Positions 13,217-22,621 of a DNA stretch of 22,621 nt are shown in pieces. A model generated the notes under the pieces. That model had not been told where the DNA came from. It was given only the letters and a program-made list of their open reading frames with translations, and made no database searches. The first letter of the stretch is position 1, and every line of letters begins with the position of its first letter. This stretch comes from a virus: positions 1 through 22,621 of IMG/VR virus record IMGVR_UViG_3300038465_000074; one strand, 5' to 3'. The translations under genes and the position numbers were made by a program.

Positions 13217-13370
13217 CTATTGCCGCCCCGTCACCGCAAGCAAAACGATATCGTTCTTTTGAATACCGATGCCTGAAACAGTTACGGTTTGCGTTGATCC
13301 GCTACTCGCCGCCGCCTGGATTTCCAGTATTGGTGTAGACGGCCGGTGTGCCGACAAGTATGGCTGGCAT
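13217..13370 (-). pseudogene. Frameshifted remnant of a beta-sandwich domain gene
   Basis: An ATG at 13370 shares its A with the TAA of the 1577-residue gene (TAATG) and opens a 22-codon frame, MPAILVGTPAVYTNTGNPGG then GE and TAG at 13302. Moving to the neighbouring frame within the GGCGGCGGC run just before that stop continues a sensible protein: AASSGSTQTVTVSGIGIQKN then DIVLLAVTGRQ, ending with TAG at 13217. Joined, it is about 50 residues and resembles the start of domain 2 of the downstream 459-residue protein (VGT..., then a GDLLILYAA-type strand). I read it as a decayed extra copy with a slippage mutation and a lost 3' part. A sequencing or assembly error at the GGC run could explain the shift but not the second early stop. 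Confidence 0.55.
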
Positions 13371-16300
13371 TACCCTGGCACCATGGTCCAAGCATTGAGG
13401 TACTGAATGGCGTTCGAGTATTGGGTGTTCGCTGTGAAGCCAACGTACGCCGTGTTGCCGCCCACCTCAGAAGGAATGTTCACCGTCCAACTATGCGAGA
13501 AAGTTTTCCCGGCCGTGAAATCAGTGAGCGTGATGGAAAACGTCGTGCCGCTATAGCTATAAGCGCACGTGATTGGGTTGCCGCTGTACAAGCTCAAGCC
13601 GCCGCTAATGTTCGTGCTTGATCCGGTTGGCTGCGCCCCACTTGTGTAAAGTCCTACGCCTCCTGCGCTTCCTAAGATCAAATCGAATGCAAGGGCAACA
13701 CTCTCTTGGATGCCGGCTGTCTGTCCGAAAGAGGTTTCTCCGGCATAAGCATTGCCTGAGTAGCCTAGTGAATTAGCGAAGTTAGACTTGATGGTCGGAC
13801 CGCCGCTAATCCAATTATTCGCCGTGCCGAAAGCACCGTCAGTGTTGGTAGAACTGGGCACAAAGTTTTGCATGACGAAACAAAAGCCGATATCGTTTTC
13901 GCCGGCAGTCGATATGCTGTTCGGAATTTCGAACGTGAAGCTGCCTGAAAACCCACTCTGAATATTGACGGGCACCGGGAACCAAGCTGCGGACGTCTCT
14001 GCCCCCAAATACCCACCACCGCTTCCGCTGGTCGTCTTGTCAGTGAGAATAATCTGAGAACCACTATGCTGCGCATAGCCGCAAAGCAGGAGCGGAGATA
14101 CGGAGGAGAAATTCGCGAAGTTGATGACGTTCGATGTGCTGATCAGATACGCACCGCCGCCCACCAAGCTATCGGTAAAGCCGGGTTGAATAGCAATTAC
14201 CTGAACCACCGCATTGGCGCTGACGGTAATCGGCGTCGTGTAGAGCGTGGATGCGCTTGTCGGTAAGAGCCCGCTGGTCGTGTAGTAAATCGACGCTCCG
14301 GCAGGCCCCGTCATCGTCACTGTTTGTGCGCTGCCATATGAGCCTGGCGCAGAACTCAAAATAGGCGTCGAGAGGCGCGTACCGGAACTAGTGGCGTAGC
14401 TCCAAGAGAAGATCGCGGCCGGAAAGGGCGGCCGTTGGCCGCAAGTAAAGCCGACCCATGCTGTATTTTGGCCCACACAAGCTGGCACATTGATTGGCCA
14501 GGTTTGACGACATTGGGCGCCCGTGACGGTATCGCGCAACACCATTTGCAGTATCGCGCTATCGTAAGTGACGACGCAGGCCAGCAAATTGCCAAGCGTC
14601 ATATCTATCCCGTAGGGATTCATGTCGTTGTCGGGCGTCAGTGAGCCCTCGACACCGCCATTGATATACAAACCCGTCTTGTTCGGCGCTCCGCCCGGTG
14701 GGTAATCCACCATCCCCAAGTTTTGAGGGTTGATTGAGAACTTAAGGCCCACGCTGTTGCCAATGCCAGGGATCGTCGTCGTCTCATTGGCAAGTGAGCC
14801 GTACCCCTCACAATTCGCATCCGAAGTTGCATCTAGGCCGTTATATGAGAGACCCCCGTAATTCGGATTCGTTGCAAGGGTAGAGTTCTGAATACAGAAC
14901 GTCATGCCACTGATGATGATCAATGTGACTGTGGCGCTGGTCGGAAACACTACCGCAGCCCCGCCGCTCGTAAGGCTTAAGCCGATTGTGCTGCCACTAA
15001 CACCCACAGTGAAATATTGGACGGGCGCTGTATACCCAGGGCCAGAAACGATCACCGTCTCACCACCGCCCGAAACGAAATAGTTGGTGCCCGTCAACGT
15101 AACTACGGCACTACCACCTGTGATCGTCGCTTTTAGTCCACTGCCGAGCGGCTTGAAGGTAAAGGCACAAACAAATGCTTGAATGTTGACTTGGGTATTC
15201 CACCAGATACCACCTGCTTCATGATCACCTGCGAATCCGGTAAGCCAAGCGCTTTCATCGGCTGCGTGGTAACCCGCAGCATCTCTCACATAAGTAATGG
15301 GTGGCGACCCGGCGAAGTTCGCAAGCTGGAATATGTTCGTCGTGACGTTGTACGCAGCACTCTCCGCGCTCGCACCATTCGAGTTGCTGATCCGAATCGT
15401 GTAGGCGTAGGCGTTGTTCGCCGTGAGCCCGGTGACGTTGTAACTCGACGTCGAAATCGAAAGACCCGTCGCTCCAGGGATGTCCGTGCCGTTCTGCGAG
15501 ATCGTGTACGTCAATCCCGTGCCGGTGCCGACGGTCTGCGGATTCCAATTCAGCGTAAGCGTTGTGGTGCCGACAACTGAAGCATGTAAATTCTGCGGCG
15601 CCGACATATAAGCAGGGGGGAGGAGTTGAAACGGATAGGTGCCGAATCCCTGGATTGCCGCGTAGATGTAGGTCGTCCACGCATCGGGCGATTGAAACTG
15701 ATTGTCAGTATTCGCCCAGAAGGACCACGGCGGCTGGTAGTACTGTGCCGAGTTATAAATGCTGTTCACCATCGCCTGCGTGTACGCACTCACGCCGGTG
15801 GATGGATTCTGGTTGTAGTCTAAATTCTCGACGTTGTTGGCCACCAAACCAGGGTAGGCGTTGAAGAAACAGGTTCCGTTTGTCGCGGGCACGCCATAAC
15901 TCGGCGGAGAAGAGAAAGTCGTACCCGAGTAAGGATTCCCCGACATGGGGTTCCACGCGCAGCCGACGTAGAGTTTCAACCAGTAAGATGCGTACCCTTG
16001 AGGATGGCTCGACTGGCTCCACGCAGTTGCTGCGGAGTAGGCATTGGTCGTGTTCGGATACAGGCCAAAGGAGTTCGAGAAGGTATCTGAGCCCATTAGC
16101 ACGACACGGCCCGCGTTCACTGCCTGCATGAAATTAGTGTGCGTCGTGCTGTTGTTCTGTCCATCGGTGCCATAGAGGCCGAAGCCATCGCAACAGCCGA
16201 TGCTGGTATTCGGGGCCGACGCTATTGCGCGAGTCTTCGAGTCCGCGATAAACCGATAGAGCTGGGCGTTCGTATAGGAAACTTGCCCCGCCGTTACCGC

Positions 16301-18103
16301 ATTGCCGTTGATGTCATTGTATGCGGCAAGCACACCGTTGATCTTATAGGTCGTATCCGTGACGATCGCTGGCAGATAGCTCGAACCAAAGCCCATCGAG
16401 AATGTGAGTTCGTCGATGTCCTGGATCATCTCGCAGTAGGGGTCGTTGTTGAATGTCAGCCCTGACGGCATTACGTGATTCAATAGCGCCCGGTACATGT
16501 TGGTGTACGCGGCAGCCGCGACTGGGTGGTACTGGTGCGCACCCATGATGAACTCAAAGCCCGCCGTGAGTCCCGAGTTGCCGTTGAAGCCCCACACGAA
16601 CCAGCCGTACTGACTTGGATTCGGCGATGCCGGGAAAGCAGTCGTTGAATACACCGTGCCGGTGAGCGAGTCGGTAATCGAGAGATTCGGGCCGTTATGG
16701 ATCAGCCACGAAGGAATCTGCCCCGAGGCCGCATTGCTCGTGTTGTAGGGATCCGCCCCGCCGATGGGGTTGCAGACATTGCCGACATAGGTCGAGTTCT
16801 TGAACGAGACGATCAAATGTTTGCCGAGCGCCTTCACGCTCGTATACGCCGAATCGATGGTCGAGAAATTATAGACAGGGCCCGAGGTGCCGGTGTCGAC
16901 CTGTGCCCAGGAGAGCTGGAGCACATAGCCGACAATGCCCGTGCCATAGGAGGTCAGATCGCTGATGTCCGAGGAAAGCGAATTGCCCGCCTGCGCCATG
17001 TAGTGGCCGGGATTGAACTTGATCTGCGCGGCGTTGTAACTCGCGGCATTGATCGTATACGCCGCACTCCCGACCGCGCTCTGCGTATACCCGCTCGCGG
17101 TGGCAATCGCCTTGACGTTCTCGGTCACACTCACCGTGATCGGGGCGGTATAGAGCGTGCTCGAGGTCGTCGGCGTCGAGCCATCGGTGGTGTAGTAAAG
17201 GGTGGAGGAAGGCGTTGCGCAGCTGATCGTGACCGTCTGCGTCGAGGTGTAAGTCCCTGCAGCGGGGTTAAAGGTCGGCGTCGCGGCTTGAGTCGCATTG
17301 ATGACATAGGCCGCACTGCCCACGCCCGACTGGCTATAGCCGCCCGCGATCGCAATGGCATTGACCGTTTCCGATACCGCTACGGTGATCGGGCCCGAAT
17401 AGACAGTGCTGCCCGTCGTGGGGGTCGTGCCATTGGTCGTGTAGTAGATCGTATTGCCCGCAGTGCTCGAGGTAATCGTCACGGTCTGAACGCTCGAGTA
17501 CGTCCCGGCACCGGGCGAGAATGTGGGCGTTGCCGCGACCGGCAGACTGATCAGGAGCGAGAGTCCTTGCTGGACCGAGTAGCCCAGGGCGTCCGTCACC
17601 TGGAATACGGGCGAATAGGTATTCGCGCTGACGGGTGTTCCGGTAATGGCCCCGCTCGAGGTGTTGAGCGATAGCCCAGGGTCGAGCGATCCGCCCACCA
17701 ACGCCCACGCATAAGGGGTCACACCGCCGCTGGCGGCGAGCGTCGCGCTGTAGGGGGTTCCCACGGTGCCGGACGGTAAACTCGTCGTCGTGATCGCGAG
17801 CATGCTGACCACGGTGAGCGAGAAGGTGGCGACGTTGCTTTTTGCCCCCTTAGTGTCGGTAATCTGCACACCGAATACAAAGGGGCTGGCCGCCGTCGGC
17901 ATCCCCGAAATAACGCCCGCGCTCGACAGACTCAAGCCCCCAGGCAGCGAGCCACTCACGACCGCGAAGCTATACGGCTGATAGCCGTCGATGCCGTTCA
18001 AGGCAGTCGCGTATTCAAAGCCGACTTCTGCGGTAAGCAGGGGACTTGGGGTAATGATCGCCGGGCCATAGCCCATGGCGCGGCTCGCGACCTGATGCGC
18101 CAC
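13370..18103 (-). CDS. Giant mosaic virion protein: Ig-like, chitobiase-like, TIM-barrel-like, FnIII and lectin-like modules; probable receptor-binding protein
   Basis: A 1577-residue protein, GTG start directly after the preceding TAG. Modules I read in order: two putative-Ig (He_PIG type) repeats at ~18-100 and ~102-187 (PGGLSLSSAGVISGMPTAAS, PGLSLNTSSGAITGTP); two chitobiase C-terminal/Fn3-associated repeats at ~190-269 and ~273-352 (NTIYYTTNGTTPTTGSTVYS); a TIM-barrel-like glycosidase-type domain at ~358-830 (VLQLSWAQVD, then YNFSTIDSAY, ALGKHLIVSF); FnIII at ~834-923; a lectin-like (L-type, concanavalin fold) domain at ~925-1238 with an insertion at ~988-1065; a third chitobiase-like repeat at ~1243-1322; and a second lectin-like domain to the end (NIPSEVGGNTAYVGFTANT). 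Candidate acidic residues in the barrel are E558, D562-E565, D639 and D673, unproven. Carbohydrate binding at the host surface is the best inference. No signal peptide. Fold calls are by pattern only. Confidence 0.8.
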   Translation of the reverse strand: MAHQVASRAMGYGPAIITPSPLLTAEVGFEYATALNGIDGYQPYSFAVVSGSLPGGLSLSSAGVISGMPTAASPFVFGVQITDTKGAKSNVATFSLTVVSMLAITTTSLPSGTVGTPYSATLAASGGVTPYAWALVGGSLDPGLSLNTSSGAITGTPVSANTYSPVFQVTDALGYSVQQGLSLLISLPVAATPTFSPGAGTYSSVQTVTITSSTAGNTIYYTTNGTTPTTGSTVYSGPITVAVSETVNAIAIAGGYSQSGVGSAAYVINATQAATPTFNPAAGTYTSTQTVTISCATPSSTLYYTTDGSTPTTSSTLYTAPITVSVTENVKAIATASGYTQSAVGSAAYTINAASYNAAQIKFNPGHYMAQAGNSLSSDISDLTSYGTGIVGYVLQLSWAQVDTGTSGPVYNFSTIDSAYTSVKALGKHLIVSFKNSTYVGNVCNPIGGADPYNTSNAASGQIPSWLIHNGPNLSITDSLTGTVYSTTAFPASPNPSQYGWFVWGFNGNSGLTAGFEFIMGAHQYHPVAAAAYTNMYRALLNHVMPSGLTFNNDPYCEMIQDIDELTFSMGFGSSYLPAIVTDTTYKINGVLAAYNDINGNAVTAGQVSYTNAQLYRFIADSKTRAIASAPNTSIGCCDGFGLYGTDGQNNSTTHTNFMQAVNAGRVVLMGSDTFSNSFGLYPNTTNAYSAATAWSQSSHPQGYASYWLKLYVGCAWNPMSGNPYSGTTFSSPPSYGVPATNGTCFFNAYPGLVANNVENLDYNQNPSTGVSAYTQAMVNSIYNSAQYYQPPWSFWANTDNQFQSPDAWTTYIYAAIQGFGTYPFQLLPPAYMSAPQNLHASVVGTTTLTLNWNPQTVGTGTGLTYTISQNGTDIPGATGLSISTSSYNVTGLTANNAYAYTIRISNSNGASAESAAYNVTTNIFQLANFAGSPPITYVRDAAGYHAADESAWLTGFAGDHEAGGIWWNTQVNIQAFVCAFTFKPLGSGLKATITGGSAVVTLTGTNYFVSGGGETVIVSGPGYTAPVQYFTVGVSGSTIGLSLTSGGAAVVFPTSATVTLIIISGMTFCIQNSTLATNPNYGGLSYNGLDATSDANCEGYGSLANETTTIPGIGNSVGLKFSINPQNLGMVDYPPGGAPNKTGLYINGGVEGSLTPDNDMNPYGIDMTLGNLLACVVTYDSAILQMVLRDTVTGAQCRQTWPINVPACVGQNTAWVGFTCGQRPPFPAAIFSWSYATSSGTRLSTPILSSAPGSYGSAQTVTMTGPAGASIYYTTSGLLPTSASTLYTTPITVSANAVVQVIAIQPGFTDSLVGGGAYLISTSNVINFANFSSVSPLLLCGYAQHSGSQIILTDKTTSGSGGGYLGAETSAAWFPVPVNIQSGFSGSFTFEIPNSISTAGENDIGFCFVMQNFVPSSTNTDGAFGTANNWISGGPTIKSNFANSLGYSGNAYAGETSFGQTAGIQESVALAFDLILGSAGGVGLYTSGAQPTGSSTNISGGLSLYSGNPITCAYSYSGTTFSITLTDFTAGKTFSHSWTVNIPSEVGGNTAYVGFTANTQYSNAIQYLNAWTMVPG

Positions 18104-19947: not shown

Positions 19948-20158
19948 CCTCGCTCGTTGCTCCGGAGTGTTCGACGGCTGCCAGATTGGGCAGGGTCTTG
20001 TTAAGCAGAATCTCGGCCGCTCGTATCTGAGTAGGGCTCAGTTCAAGTTTTCCAAGTGCGTGTTTTTCAAGGCGCTTTGCGAGGACGGTTGTCCTAATCC
20101 GGCTTCGGACTCTTTCGGGCACCCATTGGGCGTTCTTTGAGCGTTTCGGGAGTTCCAT
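19823..20158 (-). CDS. terS: Terminase small subunit
   Basis: A 111-residue protein directly upstream of the large subunit. It recognises the packaging site and delivers DNA to the large subunit. The N-terminus is basic (MELPKRSKNAQWVPERVRSR), consistent with DNA binding. The central helix-rich part, LELSPTQIRAAEILLNKTLP then NLAAVEHSG (38-66), is characteristic of one group of phage small terminases. The C-terminal ~40 residues are helical and are encoded in the stretch shared with the large-subunit gene. ATG at 20158 lies 17 nt after the previous stop, with only a weak GGTGGT ahead of it. The call depends on the pattern and on gene order; no DNA-binding motif can be proven by eye. Confidence 0.82.
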   Translation of the reverse strand: MELPKRSKNAQWVPERVRSRIRTTVLAKRLEKHALGKLELSPTQIRAAEILLNKTLPNLAAVEHSGATSEDVQYLTREAIASELGALRILIAETRRAFGSSNEPDEVHLNS

Positions 20159-20175
20159 ACACCACCACGCAGACG

Positions 20176-20364
20176 TTACACGTTCCCATTGGAATTAGGA
20201 TTAGCCCCAGGAAACACGCGAAATTGCGGCTGATAGGCGCTCGGCGAGGGAATGGATCCGCGGCTGAAGTACTCCTGCCACTCGGTGATCTGCTTTTGGA
20301 GTGCGGCGACCTGTGCTTCAAGGATCTTGATGCGCGGCTCCAAGGGCGGTCTACCGTGCTTCAT
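20176..20364 (-). CDS. Small coiled-coil protein
   Basis: A 62-residue protein starting MKHGRPPLEPRIKILEAQVA. I chose the ATG at 20364 because GAGG lies six bases upstream, and it overlaps the end of the GroES-like gene by 14 nt. An in-frame start 19 codons earlier lies inside that gene and is less likely. Residues 9-34 form a short heptad-repeat helix (ILEAQVAALQKQITEWQEYF), followed by a polar tail (PSPSAYQPQFRVFPGANPNS). It is not a membrane protein. It lies just upstream of the small terminase. Possible roles are packaging or assembly cofactor; none is shown. Confidence 0.62.
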   Translation of the reverse strand: MKHGRPPLEPRIKILEAQVAALQKQITEWQEYFSRGSIPSPSAYQPQFRVFPGANPNSNGNV

Positions 20365-20764
20365 AGTCGACCTCGATACCGCAGACATCTTGCTCCGAGC
20401 AAATAATGTGATCTTCCCCATTCACCATGATGTGCGGCCACAGATACCCGCCGATCTCCATGCCGCCTAAGTGCACGATGTCACCGACTTGGACATCGCA
20501 AGGCCTGAAGGCGCTTGATTCGCGCACGGTGCGGAAGTCTTTGCCGTCCCTTTTGCCGCGCGTGTGAATATTCGGATAGGTACCGGGGCCCGCCGCGATG
20601 ACTTGCCCGCGTACGGGCTCACCGTTCCAGTCTGCATGAATGGTTTGGCTGAGGTGTGGGGGGAGGGGCTTGACGATGAGCTTCTCGCGCAGCGGTCGGA
20701 TCTGACCTTCAACGAAAGTATGGCCCTTGTCATGGAGCCGTTGCCCGCTCGAAATCGTCTTCAC
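20351..20764 (-). CDS. GroES-like co-chaperonin
   Basis: A 137-residue protein matching the GroES fold pattern. IRPLREKLIVKPL (22-34) corresponds to GroES IRPLHDRVIVKR; RGQVIAAGPG (52-61) to RGEVLAVGNG; VQVGDIVHLGG (91-101) to VKVGDIVIFND; and GEDHIICSEQDVCGIEV (116-132) to NEEVLIMSESDILAIVE. GroES caps the GroEL folding chamber. T4 gp31 is the known phage counterpart. Here the mobile-loop region (35-51, PPHLSQTIHADWNGEPV) lacks an obvious IVL-type GroEL-binding tripeptide, and the roof is replaced by a longer basic segment (62-90). GTG at 20764 overlaps the upstream TGA (GTGA). The start may alternatively be near residue 13-20, since the first ~20 residues have no GroES equivalent. It precedes the terminase and the late genes. 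Confidence 0.88.
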   Translation of the reverse strand: MKTISSGQRLHDKGHTFVEGQIRPLREKLIVKPLPPHLSQTIHADWNGEPVRGQVIAAGPGTYPNIHTRGKRDGKDFRTVRESSAFRPCDVQVGDIVHLGGMEIGGYLWPHIMVNGEDHIICSEQDVCGIEVDYEAR

Positions 20765-20862
20765 TTGCGCTTGCGATACTCATTCAGGGCTTCGCTTGCG
20801 CGCTTTTTCACCTTTTTCGCGCGCATCAGCTCGTTCAAGGGGACCGCCTTTTGGCTAGCCAC
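20761..20862 (-). CDS. Possible 33-residue basic peptide
   Basis: GTG at 20862 overlaps the end of the 57-residue gene by 8 nt, and its TGA overlaps the GTG of the GroES-like gene by 4 nt. It encodes MASQKAVPLNELMRAKKVKK followed by RASEALNEYRKRK: a single strongly basic amphipathic helix. Fitting tightly between two coupled genes is the main support. No family recognised. A nucleic-acid-binding or assembly role is possible. Confidence 0.45.
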   Translation of the reverse strand: MASQKAVPLNELMRAKKVKKRASEALNEYRKRK

Positions 20863-21028
20863 CGGGGATTCGGACCTTGGACTTGTCGGGATGATCCTTG
20901 AAGTAGCCGAACTTGACGCCGCCTTTGAGGGAGGAGCCGACTTTCTCGATCCCCTTCACCGTGGAAGGATGCCCGGACTCACGGGACATGCCTTTCTTTG
21001 ATTCGCGATTCTCGGGTTTTCCGGGCAT
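20855..21028 (-). CDS. Small basic Gly/Lys-rich protein, first gene of the late operon
   Basis: A 57-residue protein: MPGKPENRESKKGMSRESGH, then ...VKGIEKVGSSLKGGVKFGYF and KDHPDKSKVRIPGG. The ATG at 21028 is preceded by AAGGA with 7-8 nt spacing. The protein is rich in Lys and Gly and has no hydrophobic helix. I do not recognise a family, although short basic proteins of this sort are common just ahead of terminase genes. It overlaps the 33-residue ORF by 8 nt. It is probably the first cistron transcribed from the possible promoter at 21076-21104. Confidence 0.58.
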   Translation of the reverse strand: MPGKPENRESKKGMSRESGHPSTVKGIEKVGSSLKGGVKFGYFKDHPDKSKVRIPGG

Positions 21029-21059
21029 AACAAAATCCTTTGAAGGTGGCTATGACGAG

Positions 21060-21081
21060 TACACACTAATTGCCGTGTGTA
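21060..21081. repeat. 7-bp dyad overlapping a possible promoter
   Basis: TACACAC, spacer TAATTGCC, GTGTGTA: a perfect inverted repeat in the 83-nt gap between the Q-like gene and the late genes. No T-run follows it on the minus strand, so it is not a standard terminator. It covers the possible -10 box at 21076-21081 and could be an operator or an RNA hairpin near the transcript start. Confidence 0.55.
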
Positions 21082-21104
21082 AGAGATTTCCGACGAGAAG
21101 TAAA
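21076..21104 (-). promoter_or_regulatory. Possible sigma70-type late promoter
   Basis: On the minus strand TTTACT (21104-21099), a 17-nt spacer, and TACACA (21081-21076). Matches to TTGACA/TATAAT are partial. Support is mainly the location: it is the only sizeable gap between the Q-like regulator and the first late gene, as for the late promoter of lambdoid phages. Confidence 0.28.
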
Positions 21105-21111
21105 TACCAAC

Positions 21112-21552
21112 TCACTGCGCGCACTCGGTATTTTGAGTCTGAGTGAACTGCATCGCACTTTTCCCCGACGCGATCGTCACGTAGGCGTGAATGTAGTTCT
21201 TCGCTTGGCTCAAATAGCGCCAGTACATCGGCGTGGACAAACCCACCGCCTGCGCTTTCACGCGCCCCTTGCCGTCGTAGCAATAATGCACTTCGATCAC
21301 CGGGCGCCAATTCTTGTTCATCGCCCGCCACGCCTGATTGACCAGGAGCGCCGTGCCCGTATAAACCTCTGGGAAGCGTTGTGTGACCACCCCCTGGCTC
21401 GCCCCCTCCCCTTCCTCGCGCACCGCTCCTAGCGTGCAGGAGAGCCTCCCAATGCGATCCCGGGGGCGTAGCTCGTCCAGCCCCAACATGCGCCGGCGCT
21501 CGCGCGCCCATTGCTCGCACCAAAGATCGCACTCGTCCCTAGCCCACCTCAT
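21112..21552 (-). CDS. Helix-turn-helix regulator, possibly late antiterminator (Q-like)
   Basis: A 146-residue protein. I start at ATG 21552, which overlaps the stop of the 35-residue membrane peptide as ATGA; a GTG 18 codons earlier would bury 58 nt in that gene. The N-terminus is Trp/Arg-rich (MRWARDECDLWCEQWARERR). The C-terminal half has WRPVIEVHYCYDG (82-94), then KAQAVGLSTPMYWRYLSQAK with helix NYIHA (99-123). That pattern, a 'HY' helix followed by a helix-turn-helix with G-x-S at the turn, is seen in antitermination Q-like and sigma-region-4-like phage proteins. The position immediately before the late operon matches Q of lambdoid phages. A DNA-binding regulator is likely; the antitermination mechanism is inference. 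Confidence 0.62.
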   Translation of the reverse strand: MRWARDECDLWCEQWARERRRMLGLDELRPRDRIGRLSCTLGAVREEGEGASQGVVTQRFPEVYTGTALLVNQAWRAMNKNWRPVIEVHYCYDGKGRVKAQAVGLSTPMYWRYLSQAKNYIHAYVTIASGKSAMQFTQTQNTECAQ

Positions 21553-21656
21553 GCAAGCAGCTTCCAGATGAGCGCGCCCCAGAAGAGCGTCGAGATCAGA
21601 ATCCACAGCGCGAGCGATCGATCCGCTCGCGAGGTATATCGCACCTTCATTTGCAT
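21549..21656 (-). CDS. 35-residue single-span membrane peptide
   Basis: Start ATG 21656 has a clear GGAGG five bases upstream, which decides it over the ATG four codons earlier. Sequence: MQMKVRYTSRADRSLALWIL, then ISTLFWGALIWKLLA. A basic N-terminus is followed by one membrane helix (about residues 14-35), so the likely topology is N-in. The TGA overlaps the ATG of the Q-like gene. It is too short for a classical holin; a small membrane or superinfection-type peptide is possible. Function unknown. Confidence 0.6.
   Translation of the reverse strand: MQMKVRYTSRADRSLALWILISTLFWGALIWKLLA
21609..21631. repeat. Perfect 8-bp GC-only inverted repeat inside the membrane-peptide gene
   Basis: CGCGAGCG, spacer ATCGATC, CGCTCGCG. 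It codes for part of the peptide N-terminus (codons around RADRSLA). No T-run follows on either strand. It could be an operator, a strong mRNA hairpin controlling the coupled regulator gene, or coincidence in GC-rich codons. Confidence 0.5.
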
Positions 21657-21688
21657 CGTATCCTCCATGGGGGTCGCGGGTTCACGCC

Positions 21689-21997
21689 TCACATCTCCAC
21701 CTCGCGCAGCGTCCAGCGGCCTTGCGCATTCTTGCGCCAGCCATGCACCAGCACCCGGATATGCTTGCAGACCTTCGCGTAATTGTCGTGCTCTGCGATC
21801 TTCGCGACGCGCTCCGCGACGTGATCGCCGGAAGTCGTCTGCACCCCGAGCACTTCGGTGTCGTTGATCGCGAGGATGTCGATAAAACCGTAGAGATCCT
21901 TGCGGATGTTGGCGCCCGGAATCCACCGTTCGACCACTTCTGCGGTGTAGCCCTGCTTGCGCAGGTGCTCGAGGCTTCGGGCGGTGGGCGAGCTCAC
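21689..21997 (-). CDS. PD-(D/E)XK-like nuclease-fold protein
   Basis: A 102-residue protein with GTG start at 21997 overlapping the upstream TGA (GTGA). The order of elements fits a small restriction-endonuclease-like fold: N-terminal helix (ARSLEHLRKQGYTAEVVERW), E20/E23, then KDLYGFIDILAI with D34 and D40, then the beta strand VLGVQTTSGDHVAERVAKIA, a helix, and a final strand (IRVLVHGWRK). In active members the strand reads E/Q-x-K; here it is Q53-V... with T54-T55 where Lys is expected, so catalysis is doubtful or uses another residue. Similar short proteins occur in phage early regions next to replication genes. Junction resolvase or repair nuclease are possible roles; a non-catalytic DNA-binding protein is an alternative. 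Confidence 0.62.
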   Translation of the reverse strand: MSSPTARSLEHLRKQGYTAEVVERWIPGANIRKDLYGFIDILAINDTEVLGVQTTSGDHVAERVAKIAEHDNYAKVCKHIRVLVHGWRKNAQGRWTLREVEM

Positions 21998-22224
21998 AGG
22001 GGCTCCCCGTAGAGCGCCGCAAACGCCTCCGCGTAAGTCTTGCCGACCGTCGTGCGCTTGGCCGCGAGCTTGTGCATCACGATGCCGATGCGGGCATGTG
22101 CGGCGCGGGTCTGGCGGTCCGTGATGCCGTCGAAGAGGCGGGGCGAGACGCCTTCGGCTTTGAGCTGCTCCTCGAGGCCGAGCTCGGCGTCGAAGATGGA
22201 GAACTGATGAGAGGGAGATTTCAT
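21994..22224 (-). CDS. Small hypothetical protein
   Basis: A 76-residue protein: MKSPSHQFSIFDAELGLEEQ, then LKAEGVSPRLFDGITDRQTR and a helical C-terminal half (ARIGIVMHKLAAKRTTVGKT). It is mostly helical and soluble, with no motif I recognise. The ATG at 22224 lies at the very edge of the repeat array; the first repeat half-site overlaps it, and the repeats (GAGAGCAAGAGC) stand where the ribosome-binding site should be. Its stop overlaps the GTG of the nuclease-like gene. An early regulatory or replication accessory role is possible only from position. Confidence 0.58.
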   Translation of the reverse strand: MKSPSHQFSIFDAELGLEEQLKAEGVSPRLFDGITDRQTRAAHARIGIVMHKLAAKRTTVGKTYAEAFAALYGEPL

Positions 22225-22405
22225 GCTCTTGCTCTCGCCTGCTCTTGCTCTCGCCTTGCTAACGCCTTCTTGCTAACGCCTGCTAACGCCCTCTGCTCTC
22301 CCCATGTCCCTAAAGGGACATATGGGGGGCGAGAGCAAGGCGAGAGCAGGAGGTGAGAGCAGGCCAGAGCACGTTTTGGGGTAGGCGTTAGCAGAGGCGT
22401 TAGCA
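22224..22405. repeat. Twelve-copy inverted array of the 10-mer TGCT(AA/CT)CGCC around a central hairpin
   Basis: Forward copies of TGCTNNCGCC lie at 22230, 22246 (CT type), 22257, 22271, 22281 (AA type) and 22294 (one mismatch). Reverse-complement copies lie at 22328 and 22339 (CT type), 22352 and 22362 (one mismatch each), and 22384 and 22396 (AA type). Six point right on the left side and six point left on the right side of a hairpin centred near 22312. The two leftmost forward copies are part of a perfect 16-bp tandem duplication (22224-22239, 22240-22255). The outermost right copy overlaps the stop of the upstream gene, and the left edge touches the start of the next. No convincing gene is encoded in 22225-22399. 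It resembles an iteron array: candidates are a replication origin, a partition or regulator-binding site, or a recombination hotspot. Confidence 0.9.
22304..22321. repeat. Perfect 7-bp hairpin at the centre of the array
   Basis: ATGTCCC, loop TAAA, GGGACAT. The stem can be extended imperfectly by flanking CTCTCCCC and GGGGGGCGAGAG. No T-run follows on either strand, so it is not a normal intrinsic terminator. It divides the six left and six right copies of the 10-mer. Confidence 0.85.
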
Positions 22406-22621
22406 CAATTTCACCCCCATCCGCGGCATGCGATTAGCCAATTTACCCACCTCAAACTCACGAACTTTGGACTCCAGGAGGAGTTTGTTCAGGGCGGATG
22501 ACAATTCCTTCAGGGTGTGCGGGCCCGCGAGTTTCATGGCGAGCATTTTCTTTGGGAGGTAGTCAGGACTCGAGGCGGAGGCGCGGCCCCACTGCCCAAT
22601 ACCCTCCAACTTGACGATGGC
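22400..22621 (-). CDS. C-terminal end of an unidentified protein (runs off right edge)
   Basis: The frame is open from the window edge to TAA at 22400, giving 73 residues: AIVKLEGIGQWGRASASSPD, then YLPKKMLAMKLAGPHTLKEL, SSALNKLLLESKVREFEVGK and LANRMPRMGVKLC. An in-frame TTG at 22609 could be a start, but no ribosome-binding site precedes it and the frame is open upstream, so I treat it as the end of a longer gene. The 35-65 segment is helical (TLKELSSALNKLLLESKVRE) and could be a winged-helix-like tail; helicase/primase or replication-initiator tails sometimes look like this, but I cannot identify it. If it is a replication protein, the array directly after it would be a natural origin. Confidence 0.55.
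   Translation of the reverse strand, partial: AIVKLEGIGQWGRASASSPDYLPKKMLAMKLAGPHTLKELSSALNKLLLESKVREFEVGKLANRMPRMGVKLC

Follow-up and report, generated by a model that had tools for sequence, protein, structure and literature searches.

An inward-facing iteron array behind a putative RepA-type helicase gene as a probable phage replication origin

We have analyzed an array of short repeats (iterons) that face inward from both sides of a hairpin, between the end of a helicase gene and the next reading frame of a viral contig. On comparative grounds there is a strong case that the array is a replication origin, with the tail of the adjacent helicase as its predicted reader. It is very probably the start of replication because the same layout recurs 3′ of helicase genes in dozens of unrelated phages, and because the repeats change with the helicase tail. 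No description of the element was found in the open-access literature; its novelty is provisional, since subscription papers lay outside the scope of that search.

Results

The DNA studied (the window) is an IMG/VR virus contig of 22,621 bases with no known ends. Positions 22230-22405 contain twelve copies of TGCTNNCGCC, nine exact and three with one mismatch. The left six copies all lie on the plus strand and the right six all on the minus strand, with the hairpin between them. At the density of the rest of the window, which holds 32 matches at the one-mismatch level, a stretch of 182 bp would be expected to contain 0.26 copies (Poisson p = 1.5e-16). Numbered from the helicase gene, the minus-strand set comprises iterons 1 and 2 (TGCTAACGCC; 22396..22405, overlapping the helicase stop codon TAA, and 22384..22393), 3 (TGCTCTGGCC; 22362..22371), 4 (TGCTCTCACC; 22352..22361), 5 and 6 (TGCTCTCGCC; 22339..22348 and 22328..22337), with one mismatch each in iterons 3 and 4. 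The plus-strand set, inverted with respect to these, begins with iteron 7 (TGCTCTCCCC; 22294..22303, one mismatch) and continues with iterons 8, 9 and 10 (TGCTAACGCC; 22281..22290, 22271..22280 and 22257..22266) and 11 and 12 (TGCTCTCGCC; 22246..22255 and 22230..22239). Two additional half-sites, TGCTCT, are present at 22224 and 22240.

In the helicase sense the central hairpin reads ATGTCCC-TTTA-GGGACAT (22304..22321, minus strand) and contains the core CCTTTAGG that is shared with other loci (see below); on the plus strand it reads ATGTCCC-TAAA-GGGACAT, and the stem is perfect. An outer stem of CCCC/GGGG with an AT bulge occupies 22300-22327. The whole array fills the intergenic gap: at one end copy 1 contains the TAA stop codon of the upstream gene (22400), and at the other the array reaches the ATG (22224) with which the next gene begins. 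A search of the window for DnaA boxes gave 13 one-mismatch matches, which is the level expected by chance, and none beyond it; Rfam and tRNA searches of the window gave no match.

A preliminary description of this DNA had reported twelve copies, nine of them exact, placed six and six inward around a perfect hairpin within 182 bp, with two types of NN core. All of this is borne out: the chance of such an array is about 1e-16, and the NN core of the exact copies is AA or CT only. In the two core types that description saw a possible sign of two related proteins or binding modes. It had also proposed mirror symmetry and a single large cruciform. The symmetry holds for the orientation of the copies. 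It does not extend to the core types, the order of which on the gene-sense strand is AA AA CT CT CT CT on one side of the hairpin and CT AA AA AA CT CT on the other; the block is therefore not one perfect palindrome or cruciform. Folding of the array, which the same description had suggested for both strands, was far better than that of shuffled sequences, with z = −5.6 and −6.0.

The gene upstream of the array (22400..22621, minus strand) is cut by the contig end, leaving the C-terminal 73 amino acids (p73). The sole relative of p73 is the tail of a helicase ORF in locus L119 (43% identity over 67 aa, tblastn). This is a 400-aa protein with an AAA_25 ATPase (9e-23), to whose last 67 residues p73 aligns. 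The AAA_25 helicase profile matches RSF1010 RepA (1g8y, E = 4e-25), which is a hexameric replicative helicase. By homology to L119, the upstream gene appears to encode the tail of an RSF1010-RepA-type replicative helicase, whose motor core with its Walker motifs would lie beyond the contig end. This tail is probably a winged-helix, origin-binding domain; the AlphaFold model of p73 itself was poor (pLDDT 49.5) and too low in confidence to use.

On the other side, the array abuts the ATG of a small ORF of 76 aa (21994..22224, minus strand), for which we found no relative and no family match. It is followed by a putative nuclease-like protein of 102 aa (21689..21997, minus strand), named from reading of the sequence and with no family match, and further downstream by a small-terminase-like ORF and a large terminase about 2 kb from the array. 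In two related contigs, L005 and L007, the homologue of the 102-aa protein likewise comes after a RepA-type helicase, an array and a small ORF. Elsewhere in the window (13370-18103, minus strand) lies a 1577-aa protein with several ATPTFxPGAGTYSSVQTVTI...YYTTNGTTPTTGSTVY repeats, which is probably tail or adhesin-like.

The layout of the window is found behind other RepA-type helicases. In L119, copies of TGCACAAA, a hairpin CCCCCTAT-ATAC-ATAGGGGG and then inverted copies directly follow the helicase stop, with a motif that differs from that of the window. Among terminase/nuclease relatives with a RepA-type helicase, L094 has the same layout with the iteron GGGACAT, and L005 and L007 have TGTCCAAA iterons around a hairpin whose stem differs between them (AAAAACCC/GGGTTTTT becoming AAATCCCCC/GGGGGATTT). 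It is also present 3′ of RepA-type helicases in Rhizobium phage N65 (iteron GGCGGAGAT), ct3Oc712 (TGGGACA), Idiomarina 1N2-2 (GGTACA), Salicola CGphi29 (GGGGACA), Roseobacter CRP-811 (CTACAAA) and the Methylobacterium plasmid pVL1_6. Inspection of the helicase 3′ flanks of L123, L125 and BFK20 (L131) revealed no such array. The preliminary description had held that an array missing from relatives that keep the locus would speak against it. The opposite is seen, the architecture being kept with a different repeat sequence.

Searches with the repeat itself were less informative. The window's own iteron motif was not found in the terminase relatives, because iterons differ between phages. Viral contigs scanned for three direct copies of TGCTNNCGCC yielded only coding-looking direct repeats of regular period, and of three contigs matching paired TGCTAACGCC none had the mirror layout. 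Detection by a strict word misses the arrays of L005 and L007, and a first helicase query against genome contigs gave no match.

Several features of the related contigs were observed in passing. The arrays of L005 (7685-7795) and L007 (4616-4730) lie inside the helicase coding sequence, at its 3′ end, and the iterons and hairpin are therefore translated into part of the protein tail. In the related viral contigs L280 (5700-5790) and L281 (2920-2990), direct repeats of GTTGCTAACGCC directly follow a small ORF resembling a winged-helix replication protein; they have the core word of the window iteron, and the hairpin layout is absent. L083 and L087 are one contig of 44,373 bases; as terL is present at each end, the genome may be circular or permuted and assembled with an overlap of about 2.5 kb. 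L103, from the contig of L083, contains collagen-like (GPTGATG...) repetitive coding sequence at 1500-2450.

The proximity of the terminase genes raises the question of a packaging (pac/cos) site. The array is upstream of terS/terL in the same direction of transcription, and in the pac site of P1 repeated hexamers lie on both sides of the cut. However, in the relatives it is the helicase gene, and not the terminase, that the array accompanies: in N65 the array is at 35.0 kb and terL at 43.8 kb, and in CRP-811 the array is near 4.4 kb and the terminase at 30-32 kb. We therefore give a packaging role very little credence.

We surveyed the helicase 3′ flanks more broadly. A 12-sequence helicase alignment was too diverse for scanning; with a closer one, genome and virus contigs yielded a further 142 loci. 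Flanks of at least 200 nt numbered 149, of which 99 were non-redundant and form the survey set. A hairpin was defined as a perfect stem of at least 5 with a loop of TTTA, TATA, TTA, TAA or TAAA. By this definition it is present in 44/99 flanks, compared with 14/1702 control tiles elsewhere in the same loci (Fisher 5e-48), while 55/99 flanks lack the strict hairpin. Hairpins with a stem of at least 6 lie at a median of 95 nt beyond the helicase stop; that of the window is at 85. TTTA loops outnumber TAAA by 25 to 2 (p = 6e-6), and therefore one strand matters.

The hairpins of these flanks, including that of the window, have a common core, CCTTTAGG (17 occurrences in the 99 flanks compared with 0.2 expected) or CCTATAGG (12 compared with 0.0 expected), around which the outer stem pairs vary compensatorily. 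Taken without selection for a stem, a CCTWTAGG or CCTAAAGG core occurs in 34 flanks. The three pairs just outside it are formed in 88% of these, with several pair types, compared with 38-50% in the same test at eight cores elsewhere. Being perfect, GC-rich and just 3′ of a stop codon, the hairpin might be taken for a bidirectional transcription terminator. Yet only 2/44 hairpins have 5 or more T in the following 8 nucleotides, and so they are not ordinary terminators; nor was a terminator-like site found at the window array. Termination would, moreover, leave the iterons and the strand bias of the loop unexplained, and we consider it most improbable.

Iterons too recur at these loci. In 43/52 loci with a hairpin, the most frequent 7-mer has more copies than in any of 60 shuffles, indicating an iteron array. 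To the left of the hairpin 125 copies are forward and 43 reverse, and to the right 15 and 56 (Fisher 2e-14); the class as a whole thus tends toward inward-facing copies, and the window is a clean case. The four complete phages with such arrays each have one iteron cluster per genome. Their cumulative GC skew has no extremum at the array, so that this check, proposed in the preliminary description, lends no support.

Further elements accompany the iterons. The word GGGCAAA occurs 21 times in the sense and 0 times in the antisense direction in helicase 3′ flanks, and CAAAACG is found in 14/99 flanks compared with 1.2 expected. A copy of this enriched 7-mer is present in the window at 22372..22378 (minus strand), where taken singly it is weak. 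DnaA boxes are 17-fold enriched, with 22 near 10/99 loci. We also observed strand-specific GGG(G)CAAAA between iterons in about a fifth of flanks, for example L133, L228 and L247. Perfect DnaA boxes (TTATCCACA) stand on both sides of the array in L211 (5020-5220), L214, L215, L199 and L124 (3140-3185), in a recurring arrangement at about +5, +17 and +195 past the helicase stop.

These data bear on whether the array is an autoregulatory operator, at which the helicase tail or another repressor would bind the iterons and control only transcription of the downstream operon, replication starting elsewhere. It immediately precedes the next gene, whose start it overlaps, and iteron sites of plasmids often serve as operators as well. 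However, no match to a sigma-70-type promoter was found within 20000-22621, and the element is tied to helicase 3′ ends whatever gene comes next, even a convergent one (N65). The enriched DnaA boxes, the conserved hairpin and the GGGCAAA element would also be unexpected in an operator, and we judge this explanation unlikely.

If the array is an origin, which part of the helicase might read it? We examined covariation within a single primase-helicase subfamily (47 non-redundant members), which belongs to another helicase branch than that of the window. With the ATPase controlled for, the more identical two C-terminal domains are, the more similar their iterons (partial Mantel r = 0.478, p = 0.001); the reverse test, against ATPase identity with the C-terminal domain controlled, gave −0.20. 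The primase-helicases of L198 and L214 have ATPase domains that are 99% identical, tails 38% identical and different iterons; tail and array appear to have been exchanged together as a cassette. Particular tail types are found with particular iterons: DGNAERTVRNMINPSY with TGACCCT, DGRKPRTIENDLS with GCCCCCT and ATADKKLKPGY with CGGACCG. Residue X of an SAK(X)Y helix also follows the iteron: five non-redundant loci have Q and GGTAAC, and four have V and GGAAC (Fisher 0.008), with the further pairs L with GGTAC and T with GGACA; L203, where X = Q, has no array.

AlphaFold predicts the C-terminal domain of this subfamily as a strand, helix-turn-helix and wing, i.e., a winged helix (pLDDT 91.7), in which residue X lies in the helix after the turn. 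Foldseek and VIA-align with this model found generic winged helices only (best E = 0.04, Z 6-7), and the P4 alpha domain was not among the structure matches listed. Iteron sequence thus tracks the C-terminal winged helix of the helicase rather than the ATPase. This is strong evidence, short of proof, that the tail reads the iterons, because neighboring DNA can travel together by linkage; such linkage could account for part of the covariation.

A centromere-like partition site, to which a ParB- or TubR-type adaptor would bind, might also consist of multiple repeats inverted about a center, as in some centromeres, and the winged-helix model is weakly similar to TubR, among many winged helices. 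But the repeats of the relatives covary with the helicase tail, and no par gene was recognized beside the array among the window proteins scanned, making partition a very improbable function. The preliminary description had left origin, partition site and operator side by side; comparison strongly favors the origin and gave no positive support for partition or a pure operator.

Discussion

How might such an origin work? We propose that it would be self-specified. The last ~70 aa of the RepA-type helicase (p73 here) would form a winged helix that binds the iterons directly 3′ of its own gene, and the two inward-facing sets of sites would bring helicase rings toward the center. There the hairpin, its TTTA or TATA loop between a C-rich and a G-rich arm, would be extruded or exposed once the duplex opens, and could then act as a loading or priming site, from which forks would depart in one or both directions.

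There are partial precedents for this in three known systems. The alpha protein of P4 is a primase-helicase whose C-terminal winged helix binds the origin repeats (PMC4234260). The predicted arrangement here is similar, in that one protein would join a helicase (and primase) with a winged helix reading the repeats. P4 alpha is an SF3 helicase, whereas that of the window is probably of RSF1010-RepA type, and here the iterons vary by phage and lie immediately 3′ of the gene, facing a conserved CCTWTAGG hairpin. Replication of pRN1, for which a bidirectional model was proposed, depends on a stem-loop that lies 54 bp 3′ of the replication gene; the same study points to a comparable stem-loop in phage BIP-1 (PMC4234260). 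The window shares with pRN1 and BIP-1/BPP-1 a stem-loop directly 3′ of a replication-protein gene. However, pRN1 has no iterons, a stem-loop of ~100 nt with a large loop, and a prim-pol/SF3-helicase. The window array, with iterons, a short hairpin with a 3-4 nt loop and (from L119) an AAA_25/RepA-type helicase, is for its iterons and helicase not classed as a pRN1-type origin. At oriV of RSF1010, RepC reads the iterons, RepA is the helicase, and RepB' primes at the ssiA/ssiB hairpins (PMC4234260). Iterons, probably a RepA-family helicase and, as proposed, hairpins as priming sites are common to both, but RSF1010 uses a separate RepC where covariation here points to the helicase's own tail. The element combines features of all three systems and fits no single definition.

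As judged from sequence, the putative origin also resembles plasmid iteron origins and that read by lambda O, with short repeats in one cluster per genome (complete phages), an adjoining replication-protein gene and, in several relatives, DnaA boxes nearby. Classic iterons are direct repeats; here the copies change orientation at the central hairpin and are probably read by the helicase tail, with no separate initiator.

We are inclined to regard these elements as a widespread, unnamed class of origin in phages, prophages and plasmids, in which the winged helix of the helicase reads the adjoining array and is swapped with it, around a CCTWTAGG hairpin with a strand-specific loading or priming loop. 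The origins of most environmental phages are unannotated. The signature described here (a helicase stop, inward iterons, a CCTWTAGG hairpin and sometimes DnaA boxes) marks probable origins in dozens of phages and prophages of many bacterial groups. The matched DNA-binding domains and sites also form a natural series in which one may ask how a helicase could select its origin with no separate initiator, and how phages, by swapping tail and site jointly, may avoid cross-talk.
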